From positions 4,464,001 to 4,528,000 of the forward strand of contig CP079103.1 of NCBI GenBank assembly GCA_019285755.1: a stretch of DNA of 64,000 bases, in the 5' to 3' direction. Within the stretch, counting starts at the first letter, position 1, and the number at the start of each line of letters is the position of its first letter. Shown here one piece after another: positions 16,865-26,397 of this stretch. Position numbers and translations under genes: made by a program. This DNA is from Chitinophaga sp. E66. Its GTDB lineage: Bacteria > Bacteroidota > Bacteroidia > Chitinophagales > Chitinophagaceae. The notes beneath the pieces are model-generated. The model was not told the origin of the DNA and did no database searches. It was given only the letters and a program-made list of their open reading frames with translations.

Positions 16865-16953
16865 CGATTCAGCTATATACGTTTGATACTGGTTCCCCAT
16901 TGGAATTCAAAACGTATTTCCTGTGAATTTTATTTTCTCCTGTATAGCCAAAA

Positions 16954-17035
16954 GAAGTGACGCTCAAAGAAAAAGGGCTGCTCTTTGTAGAACAGCCCTC
17001 TAGTGACTTAGGAGATTCTCCCATTCGTAGCGAGA
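16954..17035. repeat. left attachment-site repeat of the mobile element
   Basis: This copy matches 26250-26331 at 81 of 82 positions. It holds the AGGGCTG/CAGCCCT hairpin that also serves as the tRNA-Met terminator at the other end, and the last few bases of the tRNA acceptor. On the plus strand it is open and encodes LKEKGLLFVEQP, then continues beyond the repeat as EKEQLFEHFLELAEILES to a TGA at 17107-17109. That continuation is the tail the recombinase would have in the circular element. Confidence 0.85.
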
Positions 17036-17217: not shown

Positions 17218-17908
17218 ATGGATAATGAAAAATTGAAAGAAGGAGCATACTCAATTACTAAAGGAATGATAGGATCAATTCCAGTTGCGGGCTCGCTTGT
17301 GGCAGAAGTATTCGGCTTTTTAGTATCCTCGCCCCTTGAAAAAAGGCGCGAAAAATGGATGAACGAAATTTCTGAGCGCCTGTCCTCTTTGGAGAAAGAT
17401 CCCAAATTATTAGAAAAGTTAAAAGAGGATGAAAAATTCATTGATATTTTAATTGAGGCTACCAGGCTGGCAATTAAGACGTCACAAGAAGAAAAACGCA
17501 CATCTTTTGCGAATGCTGTAGAGAATGCCGCACTTGGACAAGCGCCAGATGCTGCAACTAGCCAAATTTTCCTATCCATACTCGATCAATCAACAGAATG
17601 GCATATTAAGATTCTCAACTACTTCACGGAACCGAACATTTCGTTTTTTGCTCACAATATGGAATTACGTCGATCCGCAATTACCACTGTGAAAAAACTT
17701 TATTTCAGAGATTTCCCGAAGCCCAAAAATCACCTCACTTAACCGATTTTGTGATAAATGATTTAATAAACAAAAATTGCTTAATGATGTAGACGTTAAC
17801 GCAATGGTTTCTTTCGATGCAACCCTCTCCCCTCAAGCCACAGAATTTGGCAGAAACTTCCTTGCATTCATAGCGTTGGATGACAAAAGGAACTCACGAA
17901 GGCAATAA
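17218..17908 (+). CDS. hypothetical cargo protein, frameshifted
   Basis: The first 174 residues are in one frame, beginning MDNEKLKEGAYSITKGMIGS. They include a hydrophobic Gly-rich segment (IPVAGSLVAEVFGFLV) and a charged helical segment (KRREKWMNEISERLSSLE). A shift near 17715 and another near 17780 lead to VNAMVSFDATLSPQATEFG and a stop at 17906-17908, for about 229 residues. I recall proteins of this layout in accessory islands but know no function. Being the first gene inside the left attachment repeat, it is cargo rather than transfer machinery. Confidence 0.6.
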
Positions 17909-18000: not shown

Positions 18001-18630
18001 TTATTGACAGGGATCGTAGAACGTTTTACCTCTAGCTGTATAACTAGCAATTAAAGAGTTTAATTCTCCATGATCGTCAAAGCCATAGTTGTTGAGAATA
18101 AGATGTTCGTAAATAGCCTCGACATATGCTGGAATGCTATCATTATTTAACTCATCTAGAATTCTGTTTAAAGCTGCACGTACATAGTTACTCAATACAA
18201 AGTTGTTCAGCCTGGGAACGCCATTATCGTTCTCAAGTAAATTATTCCTATGTTCCGCAGCTGTTGACCACATTATTCCTGAAGCTTTTGGGAAAAACTG
18301 ATGCATTATTCCATTCCTGAATAGCTGATAAATAATATCTCCTTTGCACCCATCAGCAGCTGGAAAATACTTCTTTACAAAAAATTTGAAGTTTTTCGCC
18401 ACCTGTTTTGGTTTTATTGGTGTGTCAGTATTTGATTCTCCAACTCTCATAATTTTTCCAAAATAATCTATAACACTACACAGAAACATAGTATGCATCA
18501 AATTCATTGTCCCGTTTAGGTTTTGAGGAACTAATCTTTCGTACAAATCTAAAGATGGAAAAATACTATCTAAATACTGTGTAAAATATTGTCTTAAGAC
18601 TATCTCTTTCTTCTCATTATACGAATGCAT
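18001..18630 (-). CDS. HEPN-motif protein, possible RNase cargo
   Basis: An intact 209-residue frame, all-helical in appearance. The segment YQLFRNGIMHQFF contains R-N-x3-H, the R-x4-6-H signature of HEPN ribonucleases with the usual polar residue after Arg. HEPN proteins are frequent in toxin-antitoxin, abortive-infection and other defence systems. No adjacent MNT-type nucleotidyltransferase antitoxin is visible; the divergent neighbour is mobC. The GC content is clearly lower than that of chromosomal genes. I rely on one motif and on the helical character, so a non-catalytic role is possible. Confidence 0.5.
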   Translation of the reverse strand: MHSYNEKKEIVLRQYFTQYLDSIFPSLDLYERLVPQNLNGTMNLMHTMFLCSVIDYFGKIMRVGESNTDTPIKPKQVAKNFKFFVKKYFPAADGCKGDIIYQLFRNGIMHQFFPKASGIMWSTAAEHRNNLLENDNGVPRLNNFVLSNYVRAALNRILDELNNDSIPAYVEAIYEHLILNNYGFDDHGELNSLIASYTARGKTFYDPCQ

Positions 18631-18694: not shown

Positions 18695-19072
18695 ATGATT
18701 ATGCTTGTGAAAAAGAACCGGGGCGGAAGGCCGCGTAAAAAAGTTAAGAAAACGCAACAACTGGCGGTAATGTGCACCTACACCGACCGCTTCATAATCC
18801 GGATTAAAGCAAAAGAGGCAAACCTAACAATTTCTGAATACCTATTAAAAATGGGTACAAGCGCCCAAGCCCCCATTTCCAAAAGCAGGACCTTACCCAA
18901 AGAAATTCTCCAGTTCACAGGGAAAATCAACCACACAGCCGGCCTCCTGAACCAGATGACCAAGAAACTCAACTGCGGCCTATCACTAAATGAAATAGAA
19001 ATGCAACTGTTGCTAAGCTGCCTCGAACAGCTAAAGAAAATTTCCGTCGATATTAAAAACTACTTGTTATGA
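18695..19072 (+). CDS. mobC: MobC-like relaxosome accessory protein
   Basis: An intact frame of about 125 residues opens with a basic stretch (KKNRGGRPRKKVKK). It then has a ribbon-helix-helix-like segment (IRIKAKEANLTISEYLLKMG) and the MobC-typical helical half with ILQFTGKINHTAGLLNQM. Proteins of this type bind near the origin of transfer and recruit the relaxase. Its stop TGA (19070-19072) overlaps the relaxase ATG (19069-19071) as ATGA, indicating translational coupling. No frameshift is needed. An internal ATG at 18701 is an equally possible start. Confidence 0.85.
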   Translation: MIMLVKKNRGGRPRKKVKKTQQLAVMCTYTDRFIIRIKAKEANLTISEYLLKMGTSAQAPISKSRTLPKEILQFTGKINHTAGLLNQMTKKLNCGLSLNEIEMQLLLSCLEQLKKISVDIKNYLL

Positions 19073-19830
19073 TCGGGAAAATTATTATCGGGAAAAGCTT
19101 CAAAGGGTGCATAAACTATTGCCTCAGCCCGAAAAAAAGGCGAGGCAGAGCGGGCGGAGGTTATTCATTATAATAACTGTTTTGGCGATAAATCCGAACT
19201 AGCAAAGCAATTTGAAGAAGTACGGGCGCTTAACCCCAAGCTGGGCAAGCCTGTTATGCATGTGATTTTAAGTCTGGCGCCGGGAGATAAGGTCCGGCCC
19301 GGGCTAATGGAGGCCATTGCCCAAGAGTGCGCGGAGGATTTGGGGTTTGCTGACTGCCAGTACCTCGCCATTTCCCATAACGACACGCAGCACCAGCATA
19401 TTCATATTATTGCCAACCGTGTCCGGTATAATGGGAAAACGGTTTCAGATAGTAACAATTACCGGCAGATTGTCCGGTTCTGTAGGAAGATGGAACAGAA
19501 ATATAACCTCACCAAAGTCCTGAATCCCCGCCGGTATCTTTCCTCCGTAAACCAACTGATTCCCCGAGAGGACCAGCGGAAAAATGCTTTGAAACGTGCG
19601 GTAGGTAGGGCGATACTGGATGCAAAAGACTTCAGTACCTTCCTTTCGCTGATGAAATCTAGCGGGTATGAGGTGGATAAGGGCCAGGGATTGCTTTTAT
19701 TGACGCCCAAAAGGTGAGGACGAAAGGCAGCGAGATTGGATATTCCTTACAAAGCATTCTGGGAACTATCGAACGGTTGAACAATCGACAAATGATTAGT
19801 CAACTTCAAAATCGCGGTATGCGAATTTAA
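19069..19830 (+). CDS. mobA: MobA/MbpB-type relaxase, frameshifted
   Basis: The start is MIGKIIIGKSFKGCINYCLS. After one extra A in the A-run at 19132-19138 it continues EAERAEVIHYNNCFG, VMHVILSLAPGD and the metal-binding triad HQHIHIIANRV (HxHxH type). After a second shift near 19700 it ends AFIDAQKVRTKG to TAA 19828-19830. About 253 residues is on the short side for this family but includes the full nicking domain. It should nick the element's oriT; I could not locate oriT with confidence. Confidence 0.85.
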
Positions 19831-19833
19831 ATA

Positions 19834-19857
19834 GCTAATCCCGATTAGCGTATTTTT
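19834..19857 (+). terminator. terminator of the mob operon
   Basis: GCTAATC-CC-GATTAGC is a perfect 7-bp stem at 19834-19849, followed on the plus strand by GTATTTTTT. It sits 4 bp after the relaxase stop and contains the stop codon of the convergent reverse transcriptase, so one hairpin serves the mob operon while overlapping RT coding sequence. Confidence 0.65.
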
Positions 19858-21414
19858 TCATAAATCTATTTAGAGAATCATTAAAGATTGCCTTATGCTT
19901 ACGTATTTGAAGTCTAATTGCAGGTTCGTTCATGATAGAGCTTGCCCTTTTCACGTAGGAAATATAGTTACCTCTTAGACTTTTGTTATCACTTCGGTTA
20001 AATATCTTAAATTCATACTCCCGCCTAGTATTTAATATTAGGCGCTTCTGCCCTCCTTCAAGCTTTACCTTATTTAATGACTGAAGTGTATAAAGTTTAT
20101 AGAGCTGTCTTTTATAAACCACGATTGAAGTCCTGGAACTTGCCTCGCAACTGAAATGGCTCGCTTAACCTTTCTTCGTACCGAACCAATCATTCTTCTA
20201 TAGAATTTTGCCAAATTAGCCGACTTTATTAAAACCTTTTCTCCATAAAACTCAAAACCTAGATAAGTAAAAGGATGGCCAATATGCCAAAAATCATTAG
20301 ACTGCTTAATTGATGTATAGCGCAAGCCTTTCTTTCCAACATGAATATTCTTAAAATAAAACCTCTCCATCTTTTCAGCACTTACGGACAATAGGCTCTT
20401 GCTTATAGTTAAATTTATGCACTTCTCAATTTCTGCCTGATCCTTCGAGTCGCAAACAATTATAATATCGTCGGAGTATCTCCGATAATATGCACGAAAC
20501 TTTAATACGACTTCCTGATATATTTCCTTATCAAAATCCAGCAAATAAAGATTGGCTAGTACTGCACTTATTGGTAACCCTTGTGGAATACCAACTGGCT
20601 CTTTACGTTCGTTTCTAAATGGGAAACGACAAAGCTTAAACTTTCCTTTCTTAAGCATTTCGCGGAAATCTGCGGATGATTTAAAAAATGCTTGCACCCC
20701 ACTCTTTCTAATTTCAGCGATCCGCTTCTCATCAAAACCAGACCTTACTCCATTCTGTATCTTCTTAACTCTTAGGTCATCTAAATAGATATATGAAAAC
20801 CTTGTGGCCGCTTTAAACACATTATAATGATCATTTGGCAATTCAGGTTGATTCAATAGCTTGGCCCAAGCTCCTTTCAATATGTTGTGGTCTATATTGC
20901 TGAAAAAGTTCTTTATATCGACTTTGAGAACACTGCATCCACTATCCTTCCTATTCTTAATCTCCTCAAAAACGTCAAAAGCAAAATGAATTGTACTCTT
21001 ATTGGCATCAAACCCAGGCACTTTTATTCTGCGATAAGCAGTTATACAATTACATAAATTTACCTCTTGAGCCAACGTTGCTTCATACCTACTCTGGAGC
21101 TGCTCAGCATAAAACCCAAAAATCATCGAATCTAGATGCGTTGCGTAATGTAGAGGCCGATTCTTTTGTTGTTTTTTAACCTTACCGTTGATTTTATAAG
21201 AATGTGCCCTGATTTTCGATTCAGGTTCCACCCTCTTAAATCTACGCTCTTTGATAATAGAGTGAATTAACGGGTGAAATGCATACTTCGCAACAAAGCC
21301 AGGATTTTCAATCAACGCTTTCAGCTTTGCATTTTCTCTTGATATATTTAACTGGTTCGATAAATGCAAATACCCTCTATTTCTTAACCAATTTACTGGA
21401 ACAAGATTCTTCAT
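19835..21414 (-). CDS. DRT/unknown-group reverse transcriptase, frameshifted once
   Basis: I place the start at ATG 21412-21414 (MKNLVPVNWLRNRGYLHLS); an upstream ATG at 21468 would put an ncRNA arm inside the gene. Palm motifs in order: RPLHYATHLDSMIFGFYA, CSVLKVDIKNFFSNID (first catalytic Asp), VGIPQGLPISAVLANLYL, and YYRRYSDDIIIV (YSDD, the other two Asp), then a C-terminal helical region ending FMKKYANRD. One shift near 20110 divides it; total about 526 residues. There is no retron NAxxH or VTG motif and no maturase or endonuclease domain. By recollection it is closest to defence-associated UG2/DRT2-like RTs, but the exact class is unsure. Confidence 0.8.
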
Positions 21415-21426
21415 ATAAAAAAACAA

Positions 21427-21810
21427 AGCCTTGTGACGGTGGTGTAGCAGAATTAAATCAATAAACATACTCTCGCATATCGAGACGGGTCAGTACCCAA
21501 ATCCTTGAGTCACACTAAAATTTGCAATGAAACAAACGAACACAAACCTGAACTAACCATGTGGATGATCAGAATTACAAGAATTTGTCATAAATTCGCT
21601 GCTTTACTAGATTACCTGGCTCTACTCGAGATAGGGACAAATGACCTCCCGCTGCTCTTGACAGTGGTGATCCTTGCCGGTGCTATCGTAATGAGCAGGG
21701 CTAGATGCAATCCTTTACCTGCATAATCTACATATGCAGTGAATGCTTCATCTGAAGCACTTTATGACCCTACCTAGACGTCTATTTTCTTCACTTAGTC
21801 ACAAGGCTCT
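21427..21810 (-). ncRNA. predicted structured ncRNA upstream of the RT
   Basis: This 384-nt stretch has no sense-strand gene but many hairpins. Perfect stems in genomic coordinates are 21719-21725/21733-21739 (7 bp), 21744-21750/21753-21759 (7 bp), 21581-21586/21592-21597 (6 bp), 21471-21475/21481-21485 (5 bp) and 21487-21490/21495-21498 (4 bp), with CTGCTC/GAGCAG at 21652-21657/21693-21698. Its ends pair: GTCACAAGGCT at 21798-21808 is the exact reverse complement of 21427-21437, extendable by wobble pairs. The 5' arm begins about 6 nt after a TATATTTG box, and the 3' arm ends 12 nt before the RT ATG. By analogy with DRT2, DRT9 and retrons I infer a template or cofactor RNA; transcription is not shown. 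Confidence 0.65.
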
Positions 21811-21813
21811 AAA

Positions 21814-21849
21814 CAAATATATCGTAATTTTATTAATTACGTATATTTG
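21814..21849. promoter_or_regulatory. divergent, palindromic promoter for ncRNA-RT and the WYL-like gene
   Basis: TATATTTG on the minus strand (21814-21821) and TATATTTG on the plus strand (21842-21849) both fit the Bacteroidota TAnnTTTG -7 box and face outward. Between them CGTAATT-TTATT-AATTACG (21823-21841) is a perfect inverted repeat. Together they form an almost perfect 36-bp palindrome with one unpaired base. A dimeric regulator bound here would control both directions; the WYL-like protein is an obvious candidate. Confidence 0.65.
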
Positions 21850-21876
21850 AATTTAACCTCACTAACCCAATAACTT

Positions 21877-23019
21877 ATGGAATACAAAATAGGAGACATC
21901 GTTTCCTAAAATCACATCCCTTCAGAGAACAAACCAGTGCGATACAAATATCCGGTGAACTGGACAAGTTCCTCCGCTAATGCTTATTATTGAAATCATT
22001 CGCGATGTAAGAGATCAGTATGATGAGCATACTGGAAGTGTTATTACATTACGAGATCAAGGCCAATGTAAATGCATATGGTATTCTACAAAATCCAACC
22101 AATTTGAAGAGATATGGATACATTCAGGTTCATTGAAACATATCAAAGAAGCTGAAATTAATCAAGATAATCCCCAAATAAAAAAAGGTGACTTAGTTTC
22201 TTTGAAGTCTCTGAAACTTGAATTAGGCAAACAGAAGGTTACTTCTTCAAGTGAAAACGCTGGCTCAAACAAAATGCAGCCAAATATTATTGTCAATTCT
22301 CTACTATCATATTTGCCACCAATCATGGAAGTCGTTGACATAAAAAAATACGAGAGCAAAGATCCATTGTATGACGCCAAATCCGGAAAGAAAAAAGAGA
22401 GGTGCCTACTCAAATAGCAAAGTGCCGTTGGTTTAATTCAGCGCAAGACAAGATTTCAGAGAAGCAACTACCCATAGAATCATTGAAAGTACTTCCAGTG
22501 ATATCAAACATAATCTTTGATACACTCACCACGTATATTAACGCTAAAGCGACTATTACCAATTCAAAAGAACAATTCTAGTCGAGCCCAAAAAGATAAG
22601 TTTCAGAAGTGGGTACTATTACTTATCGGGTTTTGATCTTATTTCAAATAGGTTAATCGAATGTGAAATATCGCCAAACGAAAAGAATTTGCATTAGTTA
22701 AGCCTGCTAAACTAGCAATCGCGCCCGCGCTAATGAATTTCAATGGTGAATCAGATGAAGGTTTAAAGAGTATACGTGATGAAATTACAGACTTAATTGA
22801 TGCAAATGCTGAAAACTATATTCGAATAAAATATGTTAATCGACTAGGGAAATTAACAATTCGAACAATTAAGAACCCTCGTATCAAAAACATTACCGAA
22901 AATGGGGAAAGTGTACCTATGTAATAGCAGATTGCCTTTTAAGGAATGAAGAAAGGGTATTTAGAATCAGCAGGATTCAAAATTTAGAAATATTGGCAAT
23001 TAAAGCGAACGTTGAATAA
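21877..23019 (+). CDS. protein with two YodC/DUF2158-like modules and a WYL-like domain, frameshifted
   Basis: The reconstruction begins MEYKIGDIV-LKSHPF at ATG 21877. Module A (KIGDIV, PPLMLIIEI, CKCIWYST, SLKHI) is echoed by module B (KKGDLVSLKS, PPIMEVVDI, AKCRWFNS, SLKVL). The C-terminal third reads YIRIKYVNRLGKLTIRTI and YVIADCLLRNEERVFRISRI, the pattern of a WYL domain. At least five shifts are needed (near 21905, 21975, 22398, 22580, 22915), so decay cannot be excluded, but the joined product of about 380 residues is coherent. It is transcribed divergently from the ncRNA-RT unit and may regulate it or sense its products. The domain combination is unfamiliar to me. Confidence 0.5.
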
Positions 23020-23227: not shown

Positions 23228-23473
23228 TTATACGATTGCACTTTCGGGCAGAAAATCCTTCGGAGAACAATTAAAGATCCTAGCCAGGTCGTTCAGGTGC
23301 CGGATATTATACTTATGCCGCTGGCTCTCGCTCTCCACATTCGATACAAAACTGTCCGCCAGCCCGAGGTGATGGGATAAATCTATCTGGCGCATTTCGG
23401 CCTTCTCCCTCATTTCCTTTACCCTCTCGATAACGTACAAATCAATTTTGGATGCGTGCGGCTTACTTCTCAT
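23228..23473 (-). CDS. XRE family HTH regulator
   Basis: From the ATG at 23471-23473 the protein has about 81 residues (MRSKPHASKIDLYVIERV). The helix-turn-helix is typical of the Cro/C1 family: MRQIDLSHHLGLADSFVSNVE, residues about 25-45. No sensor domain is present. Frames upstream of this ATG remain open but run through an 18-bp palindrome that is better read as its operator. It is likely the master regulator of the element or an autorepressor, divergent from the genes leading to the recombinase. Confidence 0.75.
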   Translation of the reverse strand: MRSKPHASKIDLYVIERVKEMREKAEMRQIDLSHHLGLADSFVSNVESESQRHKYNIRHLNDLARIFNCSPKDFLPESAIV

Positions 23474-23516
23474 TGGGAATTTTGAGGTAAAGCACGGGCT
23501 AACCAAAGAAAATATC

Positions 23517-23534
23517 AACCACACATGTGTGGTT
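23517..23534. promoter_or_regulatory. 18-bp perfect palindromic operator AACCACACATGTGTGGTT
   Basis: The sequence equals its own reverse complement over 18 bp and lies 44 bp upstream of the XRE start codon. A TATATTTG -7 box points to the right at 23551-23558. It is the natural operator for autoregulation and control of the rightward genes. Confidence 0.65.
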
Positions 23535-23848
23535 ATGTGTAAATATTCACTATATTTGGATAAATAGTTTACCAAACAAAACAACCATGAATTCTTCCTA
23601 GATGCTTAATTTTGGCGTCTGATAAATAATCAAGCGTATTTGCTTTTCTCTCGTACCCGAAAACTACGACCTTTCTAGACTACGAGCGATAAGGTAAATC
23701 GCCTGCATCATACTGGTGTGGGCGTTCTTATCTCGTTGTCTGGGTGTCGTAGCCCATCGGGAACAGGTAGGGACTAACCCACGCCATTTTCTATTTCCCT
23801 AGTTCCTACCCCATCTCCCTTACTTTTTCCTCACCCAAAACTTGACCG
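23535..23848. other. leader region with a TATATTTG promoter box
   Basis: The 314 bp to the next gene contain a plus-strand TATATTTG (23551-23558) and several scattered short repeats, including CTACGA twice near 23666 and 23681. No coding frame is convincing. A transfer origin could lie here, but I see no diagnostic nick-site sequence. Confidence 0.35.
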
Positions 23849-24747: not shown

Positions 24748-24825
24748 ATGACTCAAGAAGAGAAAGAATTTTGTGAATTAGTGGCCTGTATCATTGTTGA
24801 ACTCATTTTAAACGAAACGTTATGA
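24748..24825 (+). CDS. 25-residue leader peptide coupled to the recombinase
   Basis: ATG 24748 opens MTQEEKEFCELVACIIVELI and ends LNETL at TGA 24823-24825, overlapping the recombinase ATG as ATGA. The overlap, and my recollection of small ORFs before Bacteroidota serine recombinases, suggest it is translated. Its function is unknown; it may only couple translation. Confidence 0.5.
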   Translation: MTQEEKEFCELVACIIVELILNETL

Positions 24826-26342
24826 TCGCAATCGGGTATGTTCGCATCAGCACGAAAGACCAGTCCAAATACTCGCTGGACTATCAGAAAAACAGCATCA
24901 GGGATTATTGCAAGCGGAACAAACTGGAACTCGTCAACCTCTTTGAGGACGACGGCGAAAGCAGCTACACCTTTGACCGCCCCGACTGGATCGCTCTGGA
25001 AGACTTCATCAAGAAGCACAAAGGCAAAGTCCAGTACCTCATCGTCATGGATCACGACCGTTTCAGCCGGAACCTACCGGAAGCCCTCAACAAAATATCC
25101 CACCTCGAAATGAAATTCGGCATCAAGGTACTGGCGACGAACGAACCCATAGACCTCGATCCCTCCGACCCCAACGTCTTCATGACCCGGGCGTTCAAAT
25201 ACATGATGGCGAACAACGAGCTTTTCAACATCCGCCGCCGCACCTCCGCCGGGATTCGGCAAGCATTGGAAAGCGGCCGTTTTGTAAATCGCGCCCCTTT
25301 CGGCTATAAAAACGTCAAGGCAGAAGGCGGGAAAGGTTTCATCGTAATCGACGAGGAACGCTCGTTCATCGTGAAAAAGATCTTCCGGGATTTCCTGATG
25401 GGCCATCCATTCGGGCAAATCTGCAAAGAAGCCCGCGCCCTCGGGTTCACCTATTCCGGCAACTCCGCTATCCCACGCATACTGAATAACCACCTGTACG
25501 CCGGATTGATAAAAGTTCCCGCCAGCAAACAAACCCCGGAGAAAATAATCCCCGGCATCCACCAGCCGATTATTTCAGAAACGGAATTTTGGCGGGCGCA
25601 GGAATTGCTGGGCAACATCAAACCCATCAAATGCATGCCGGTGGATGAAGTGCCCCTACGCGGCATCCTCACCTGCACCTGCGGCCTCAACATGACCGCG
25701 GGCAAAAGCAAAGGCAAACGGAAATATTACAATTACTACCGCTGTCGCGTCCATAATAACCTGAACTTCCCGCTATCAAAGTCCACGATCAACTGGATAA
25801 AATCTTTGACTTGTGCAGCTTCAAGCCGGAACAAACCACCTACATCGCGGAGAAAGCAAAGGAAAGAATGAACGAAGCCCTGGCCGAAAGAACCCAGCAG
25901 GTAGCCATAAAAACAAAAGAATTGGAGGAAGTAAACCGGAAGATCGAGAAGAACGAAGTGCGGTTTATGGAAGACATGATCGAACCGGAAACGTACCGGA
26001 AGTGGCACAAGAAATTCCAGATTCAAAAGCATTGCTCATGGAAGAAATCAATTCCCTCACGCGCAACCGCCACGAAAAACTGGAAAAGCTTTTTCAAGTG
26101 CTCCCTATTTAACATCCCTCAAAAGTATTTATCAAAACGCCGGCGTCAGGCAAAAACATCATCTATTGCGTGGGGTGTTCAAACGTGGGCTCACATATCG
26201 CGAAGGGGCATTTAGAACACCCTATCTCCATCCTGCCTTAATACATAACGAAGTGACGCTCAAAGAAAAAGGGCTGCTCTTTGTAGAACAGCCCTCTGGT
26301 GACTTAGGAGATTCTCCCATTCGTAGCGAGAGAGGGAGTTGA
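24822..26342 (+). CDS. large serine recombinase (integrase of the element), frameshifted
   Basis: The catalytic domain starts MIAIGYVRISTKDQSKYSLD with the nucleophilic Ser in VRIST. It continues through DHDRFSRN, a recombinase domain (NRAPFGYK), a zinc ribbon (GILTCTCGLNMTAG ... YYRC) and a coiled-coil region rich in Glu/Lys/Arg. Shifts near 25765, 26020 and 26105 separate four frames. The last frame reads LKSIYQNAGVRQKHH, FKRGLTYREGAFRTP and LKEKGLLFVEQP, the usual C-terminus of this group, and stops at 26340-26342 inside the tRNA gene. About 507 residues. The last 30 or so codons lie in the attachment repeat. Confidence 0.85.
26250..26331. repeat. right attachment-site repeat of the mobile element
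   Basis: The second copy of the 82-bp direct repeat. On the plus strand it encodes the end of the recombinase. On the minus strand it contains the 3' end of the tRNA-Met and that gene's terminator hairpin. It therefore serves as coding sequence, terminator and recombination site at once. Confidence 0.85.
26267..26297 (-). terminator. rho-independent terminator of tRNA-Met
   Basis: Read on the minus strand, AGGGCTG pairs with CAGCCCT around a 12-nt loop and is followed by TTTTTC. It begins 27 nt beyond the tRNA 3' end. An identical hairpin is duplicated in the left repeat. Confidence 0.75.
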
Positions 26343-26397
26343 ACCCTCGACCTCAGGGTTATGAATCCTGCGCTCTAACCGCCTGAGCTATCTCGCC
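26324..26397 (-). tRNA. tRNA-Met (anticodon CAU)
   Basis: The minus strand folds as a 74-nt cloverleaf. Acceptor GGCGAGA pairs with TCTCGCT (one G-U pair) with discriminator A. The D arm is AGCTCAGGCGGTTAGAGC, the anticodon loop TTCATAA, and the T arm GAGGG-TTCAACT-CCCTC. The anticodon stem has one A-C mismatch next to the loop. CAU could also be a tRNA-Ile2 decoding AUA after modification; elongator Met is more likely. CCA is not encoded. The mobile element is inserted at its 3' end, leaving it intact. Confidence 0.85.

Follow-up and report, generated by a model that had tools for sequence, protein, structure and literature searches.

The window (i.e. the whole stretch of 64,000 nucleotides that was analysed) carries a reverse transcriptase (RT) locus which probably represents a DRT2-like variant that would make a Neo protein by rolling-circle reverse transcription and act as an abortive-infection system on a mobilizable element of Bacteroidota. 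We put the probability of this reading, which was reached by sequence comparison, at about 0.75. It draws on the family of the RT, on the terminal helix of a long upstream RNA, on a word repeated at the two borders of a putative template, on the phase and openness of the template units in related loci, and on a partner gene that accompanies the RT.

The reverse transcriptase

The RT open frame occupies 21468-20074 of the minus strand. Alignment with the relatives suggests the ATG at 21414 as the likely start, which gives a main frame of 446 amino acids (20074-21414) containing the YSDD motif mentioned in the preliminary description; the C-terminal part is found in another frame (19835-20122, minus strand). 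Both parts match the PADLOC Drt2 profile (E 7.7e-117 and 4.3e-9, respectively). When the frame 21468-20074 is taken as a whole, Drt2 scores 388 bits (E 1.4e-116) and the next family, UG17, 95 bits. Among solved structures, Drt2 RTs match best (9c0i and others, E 5.5e-41 with the query from 21468), followed by Drt3a (1.7e-7). The NCBI curated Drt2 equivalog model has a cut-off of 390 bits, and the window RT, which is frame-broken, reaches 312.8 bits; an intact close relative (L024) and a sister-clade RT (L003) score 347.0 and 348.0 bits, both under the cut-off, and the Klebsiella-type control L004 scores 556.3. Because Drt2 wins among the profiles but the NCBI cut-off is not reached, the sequence is that of a DRT2-like RT outside the curated boundary, and we do not class it among the canonical DRT2 systems.

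Three other assignments were tried and rejected. The retron profile St85 gave 59 bits (cut-off 235), the group II intron maturase model TIGR04416 gave 76 bits (cut-off 300) with no Rfam intron match at gathering scores, and the Drt9 profile gave 45 bits as compared to 388 for Drt2. The first two scores agree with the preliminary description, which had seen neither retron nor intron maturase features in the RT, and by the profile scores the RT does not group with group II introns or canonical retrons, the outcome which that description had named as speaking against it.

The RT tree has 58 rows, collected from genome searches, one genome-contig scan and one plasmid record. Duplicates (L034, L039, L045, L051, L052 and L054), the RT fragment L032/L038 and one short match (L006) were left out before the counts. 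The subclade of the window, A1 (15 rows), the subclade A2 (8 rows) and the group of A1, A2 and L037 each form one side of a 100/99 branch. The last group, i.e. clade A, comprises 24 RTs, and the tree holds 34 other RT loci. In 21 clade A relatives, those uncut by a contig end, the stop-to-stop RT frames are 504-569 codons long. DRT2-like RTs are uncommon: 12 out of 394 genomes from the family of the window matched at E 1e-30 or better, and five of those 12 carry the clade A type. A search of viral contigs gave no matches. We also note that L032 (G816:C36) contains an RT part 52% identical to that of the window (query 329-448) within a 466-codon frame, the first part of which is unlike a window-type RT.

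The upstream RNA

The preliminary description had placed about 385 nt of hairpin-rich sequence without a sense-strand gene in front of the RT, and this picture is confirmed. The predicted RNA is about 388 nt long (21424-21811, minus strand), the ends being set by a 14-bp terminal helix and by a promoter box. The minus strand of 21469-21870 folds at -122.1 kcal/mol (z = -4.56), which none of 100 shuffles equalled, and the longest stop-free stretch on the sense strand of the region, the upstream end of the RT frame aside, is 49 codons. No Rfam family matched the RNA region at its gathering score.

The 5' arm of the terminal helix (21798-21811, minus strand) pairs with a 3' arm located just before the RT start codon (21424-21437, minus strand). 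Next to the 5' arm is the box TATATTTG (21814-21821, minus strand), a perfect TAnnTTTG, which we take to be the consensus of the Bacteroidota -7 promoter element; it is probably the -7 element of the ncRNA/RT promoter. A perfect TAnnTTTG directly precedes the terminal helix in 13 of the 15 A1 loci (the exceptions are L025 and L048). A TTG upstream of this box was seen in 0 out of 14 A1 loci (for L042 and L044 there was too little sequence).

When the best helix was searched for in the 23 A1 and A2 loci, 22 of them gave an arm immediately preceding the RT start and a partner arm at a span of 316-411 nt; in L024 another helix was found and the arm was set by hand. The preliminary description had proposed a covariation check, and the terminal helix does co-vary. 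In our first arm-swap test the 5' intervals had been chosen for their pairing, a choice that biases the result towards the own arms; the test was therefore repeated with intervals set by the box. In the repeated test the mean pairing energy in the A1 loci is -25.5 kcal/mol for the own arms and -13.9 for arms exchanged between loci. In 12 out of 13 A1 loci none of the 12 swaps was as good; the exception was L008 (4 out of 12 swaps as good), where the rule picked a second box. For A2 the contrast is weaker (-19.0 own versus -15.5 swapped), and these values come from the intervals that favour the own arms.

Two further elements were investigated. An inner helix would join GGTC (21766-21769, minus strand) to the complementary GACC (21488-21491, minus strand). 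With position-set intervals the own and swapped energies are -7.8 and -6.1; wide intervals are uninformative in A1 (-13.6 versus -12.7), and hand-picked six-base segments give 5.65 versus 3.77 pairs (20 out of 23 loci), a comparison that is biased by the choice for complementarity. On sequence grounds we regard the support for the inner helix as moderate. The hairpin ACTCA/TGGGT after the template (21495-21510, minus strand) is paired in 75 out of 75 cells in 15 sequences and shows two double changes, a value reached by 1 out of 500 shuffles.

The putative template and its antisense frame

The putative template comprises 183 nt (21529-21711, minus strand). Its plus strand corresponds to one Neo repeat of 61 codons, which is free of stops, and the first in-frame ATG of this antisense frame is at 21559-21561 (plus strand). 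The word ATTGCA occurs at both borders on the minus strand: the 5' copy (21706-21711) lies inside the template and the 3' copy (21523-21528) just outside it. It is the longest word shared by the two zones and is unique in them. In other words, a cDNA that slips from one copy of the word to the other would give a concatemer with an endless antisense frame.

For the A1 loci, the words were picked by eye on the aligned 5' and 3' zones, after earlier printouts had shown some of the open frames. Outside the window, where the word is ATTGCA, they mostly begin with ATT, and are TTTAT- or TTATCA-like otherwise; the units are 108-198 nt long, with 129 nt predicted for L024 and 195 nt for L007. In 14 of the 15 loci the unit length can be divided by three and the concatemer has an antisense frame free of stops (in L041 after a one-base move of the 3' word); L025 fails with a unit of 145 nt. 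At a chance of 1 in 3 each, 14 out of 15 such lengths have a binomial probability of 2.2e-6, to be read with the fact that the loci share ancestry and their chances cannot simply be multiplied. Dinucleotide-shuffled templates were endless in 1 to 12% of the cases, and the product of these values, 2.4e-21, is overstated since the loci are related. We note that stretches of the same length placed inside the RT genes were endless in 43 out of 286 cases, which is more than the shuffles suggest. Between the junction and the first ATG, no stop interrupts the frame in 14 out of 14 A1 units (chance about 1.3e-4).

A blind rule that takes the longest shared word in fixed zones gave an endless unit for 12 of the 28 top words of the 15 loci. 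In the window the rule returns a unique top word, ATTGCA, with an endless unit of 183 nt. When only ATT words are considered, 12 loci have one in both zones, and for 11 of these at least one pair of words gives an endless unit. If a border is moved by 1 or 2 nt, 0 out of 15 units stay endless, which merely restates that the lengths are multiples of three. A 3' border inside or adjoining the ACTCA hairpin was also tried; it gave some endless solutions, none of them consistent. In A2, the ATT word leads to an endless unit in only 4 of the 8 loci, at inconsistent places.

The open frame has a mean hydrophobicity of 0.55 as compared to 0.45 for the other two frames, and it is the highest of the three in 10 out of 14 units. 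Codon-position counts in six pairs of loci were mixed; L042/L044, L007/L046 and L047/L048 together sum to 63, 42 and 78 changes at positions 1, 2 and 3, respectively.

Possible promoter sequences on the predicted concatemer

In the window, the Neo strand has an imperfect -7-like box, TAAATTCG (21591-21598, plus strand), downstream of the ATG; it is a weak box with 5 of the 6 consensus bases. Among the A1 concatemers a perfect TAnnTTTG is present on the Neo strand in 8 of the 14 units (shuffles: mean 1.4, maximum 5), and the opposite strand has 0. Six of these eight boxes are at unit positions 65-71, i.e. past the first ATG (positions 15-44). The count may in part reflect conservation of the Neo protein. 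A promoter spanning the junction was found in 0 of the 14 A1 units by scanning for consensus forms; TTG followed by TAnnTTT[GA] at a spacing of 19-21 nt occurs in 1 out of 14 and never across the junction, and a search for exact sigma70 hexamers in the A1 concatemer gave none. If this box is genuine, each A1 repeat could carry the promoter for the ORF start in the repeat that follows it, an idea in which our confidence is low.

A second set of Bacteroidota loci behaves differently in this respect. Twenty loci were examined, 19 in or near the sister clade together with L027, which the tree places elsewhere, and 12 were carried on as units (not carried: L063, L066, L049, L062, L067, L011, L002 and L016). 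The words were chosen from a listing that showed the lengths, and the -7 box served as anchor for the 3' border. In 11 of the 12 the unit is a multiple of three and endless; L018 fails with the automatic word (148 nt), and a word aligned to its sister L003 gives 141 nt and an open frame. All 12 have TAnnTTT[GA] 1 to 8 nt from the junction, as expected of an anchor. The TTG, in turn, was not used in choosing the borders, and 9 of the 12 loci (L003, L014, L064, L065, L028, L019, L029, L012 and L027) have one at a distance of exactly 20 nt upstream of the box. The pair straddles the junction in every case and is never found within a single unit; in shuffles the combination TTG-N20-TAnnTTT[GA] was seen in 0.08 loci on average and in 2 of 12 at most. 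By sequence, this putative promoter is the strongest support for such borders in Bacteroidota, though it lies outside the clade of the window. It corresponds to the promoter that is reconstituted in the Klebsiella DRT2, here in the form typical of the host.

Two Klebsiella-type loci, L004 (Proteus) and L033 (Photobacterium), have no second ACA at the right place. Their 5' border was placed at ACA and their 3' border where the published spacing of the promoter puts it. This gives units of 123 and 111 nt, both endless and multiples of three; TTGACA-N17-TATAAT lies across their junction by construction.

The partner gene

A YodC/WYL-like gene, broken into several frames, runs divergently from the RT on the plus strand (about 21877-22924, the start being read from the sequence). 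Its segment 21980-22417 matches the PADLOC profile RTasWYL-YodC with E 9.1e-37. A profile was built from the clade A copies, the copy of the window excluded, and used to search the fetched flanks, mostly 1.5 kb. In these flanks the gene was present at 24 of the 24 clade A loci (in L037 as a weak match, E 8.3e-7) and at none of the other 34 RT loci in the tree. The PADLOC partner profiles (RTasWYL-YodC and RTasYodC) reach E 3.3e-100 in L007 and 2.1e-88 in L055. In the A2 loci L059 and L060 the YodC-like gene precedes the RT and shares its strand, i.e. it is not divergent. By its distribution the YodC/WYL-like protein is a fixed partner of the system, probably a regulator, a sensor or an antidote. 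The association of these families with RTs is already catalogued in PADLOC, as protein profiles only, and the literature searched contained no paper joining YodC and DRT.

The probable mobilizable element and the host assembly

The system is flanked by an 85-bp direct repeat, probably an att site. The left copy (16951-17035, plus strand) is 98% identical to the right copy (26247-26331, plus strand) at a spacing of 9296, and the right copy overlaps the 3' end of a tRNA-Met gene (26323-26397, minus strand). Between the repeats there are, in this order, genes for a NikA-like mobilization protein (18695-19072, plus strand; PF21983, E 1.4e-12) and a MobA/VirD2-like relaxase (19256-19717, plus strand; PF03432, E 1.9e-29), the latter probably cut by a frame break, the RT system, a gene for a helix-turn-helix protein (23228-23584, minus strand; PF13443 over the cut-off) located between the partner gene and the recombinase, and a gene for a serine recombinase, probably the integrase (24822-25871, plus strand; PF00239 and PF07508), that adjoins the tRNA. 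The helix-turn-helix protein is possibly the repressor of the element. Two ORFs that follow the left repeat and precede the mobilization genes (17218-17742 and 18001-18630) had no PADLOC match and no Pfam match over the cut-off. From its gene content and repeats, the 9.3-kb stretch looks like an integrated mobilizable element, in accordance with the earlier view of the RT system as mobile cargo.

The background is Bacteroidota, as had been proposed: the host genome gives 73 SusC/RagA-type matches, and the host was assigned to this phylum because of them. In 14 control genomes the same model gives a signal in 4 and exceeds its cut-off in 1, likely Bacteroides ihuae.

The RT changes frame near 20.1 kb, its C-terminal part continuing in another frame, and the partner gene is likewise split, into four profile pieces. 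These breaks, together with the imperfect -7 box on the Neo strand of the window, would fit a decayed remnant in which the frames of the RT and the partner are truly broken. The assembly offers a simpler view. It consists of a single 6.29-Mb contig scored as 65% complete, and the rpoB gene of the same genome (G000:C1:4319870-4323640, outside the window) was matched in seven pieces and in all three frames. Since these two observations suggest that breaks are widespread in the assembly, we read the break near 20.1 kb as technical, i.e. as probably an assembly indel and not a true lesion. Moreover, the phase of the template and the terminal helix are undamaged in the window. We thus consider a decayed remnant unlikely.

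Comparison with known systems

The Klebsiella DRT2 is described in two papers (Tang et al. 2024, preprint, PMC11100668; Wilkinson et al. 2024, PMC12039810). Its RNA is 280-281 nt long; bases 29-148 form the template, which is bordered by two ACA words. The cDNA slips from one of these words to the other, and read in antisense the concatemer gives an endless ORF, neo. As far as these descriptions go, the window resembles the Klebsiella pneumoniae system in the RT family, in the structured ncRNA upstream, in a central template between repeated words, in a unit that is a multiple of three, in a stop-free antisense frame across the junction and in the hydrophobic repeats.

There are also differences. 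The RNA of the window is about 388 nt long instead of 280, and its 5' part of about 100 nt contains the terminal helix, whereas the Klebsiella RNA has 28 nt before the template. The jump word is ATTGCA instead of ACA, and the unit 183 nt instead of 120. The ACA-1/ACA-2 flanks of DRT2 are absent in the window, the relatives having mostly ATT-like words, and L004 and L033 are also without the second ACA. A junction promoter was not found in A1 for the consensus forms scanned, unlike in the Klebsiella system, and the window RT is under the NCBI Drt2 cut-off, unlike the DRT2 control L004. Finally, the DRT2 of Klebsiella is a single-gene system, whereas a YodC/WYL-like gene stands beside the RT at 24 of 24 clade A loci. 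In summary, the RT class is known, and the variant is new by its jump word, by its longer, helix-closed RNA, perhaps by a permuted promoter, and by its fixed partner.

In the literature searched, as far as its text was available, the RNA or the Neo of clade A is not described; supplementary files, which lay outside the search, may hold such clades. The preliminary description had suggested that the RT class and the RNA could both be undescribed. This does not hold for the RT class (Drt2 388 bits versus 95 for the next family, with structure matches to Drt2), but it stands for the RNA architecture, the jump word and the hidden ORF of the template, which are undescribed as far as our searches reach. 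The Neo preprint (Tang et al. 2024, PMC11100668) mentions that Neo was harder to annotate in more divergent DRT2 clades and that other mechanisms are possible there.

Discussion

By analogy, this lineage most likely works like DRT2. The RT would bind the RNA of about 388 nt that is made just upstream of its gene. On phage infection it would copy the 183-nt template (21711 to 21529 in the order of the ncRNA), starting at its 3' end. When a round is finished, the growing cDNA would carry the complement of ATTGCA at its tip, slip to the second ATTGCA and restart, yielding a head-to-tail cDNA. The concatemer, made double-stranded and transcribed, would encode a stop-less ORF of hydrophobic repeats of 61 residues (Neo), and Neo would arrest the cell. 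The genome holds a single copy without the join, meaning that the Neo gene as such would not exist in it.

An alternative is that the cDNA acts as a nucleic acid, in the manner of DRT9, DRT10 or retron msDNA, and that the open antisense frame is incidental. According to the literature, upstream ncRNAs are common to the class 2 DRTs, DRT9 producing a homopolymer and DRT10 tandem repeats, and the present system shares with these two a UG RT, an ncRNA template and a presumably repetitive cDNA. The RT profiles of the two, on the other hand, score far lower (Drt9 45 bits and UG17/DRT10 95 bits, against 388 for Drt2), in 14 of 15 A1 loci the unit is open and its length divisible by three, and the open frame is the more hydrophobic one (0.55 versus 0.45), though top in only 10 of 14. 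We therefore regard this alternative as improbable. An ordinary small hydrophobic antisense gene without any concatemer is very improbable: the window does have a complete short ORF from the ATG at 21559 to a TAA at 21724-21726 (55 codons), but such a gene leaves unexplained the spacing of the words in multiples of three (14 of 15), the in-frame openness before the ATG, and the promoter of the second set, which only the junction completes (9 of 12).

Within the preferred reading, i.e. a DRT2-like system making Neo from a concatemer, a more specific and tentative proposal, which we think somewhat more apt to be wrong than right, is that clade A is a separate, three-part DRT type. Its parts would be a helix-closed RNA with its RT, an endless gene with a promoter that lies within the ORF, downstream of the start codon, which makes at least two repeats necessary for expression, and a YodC/WYL protein that senses the infection or restrains the system; the phase of the hidden gene would be kept across Bacteroidota while the jump word and the promoter are rewritten for the host.

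The phase, the openness and, in one set, the junction-spanning promoter of the Bacteroidota type predict template borders and Neo sequences for divergent DRT2 clades. If the reading is true, the assembly of a gene by rolling-circle reverse transcription would be retained even as its signals change, with a fixed partner protein awaiting a role.
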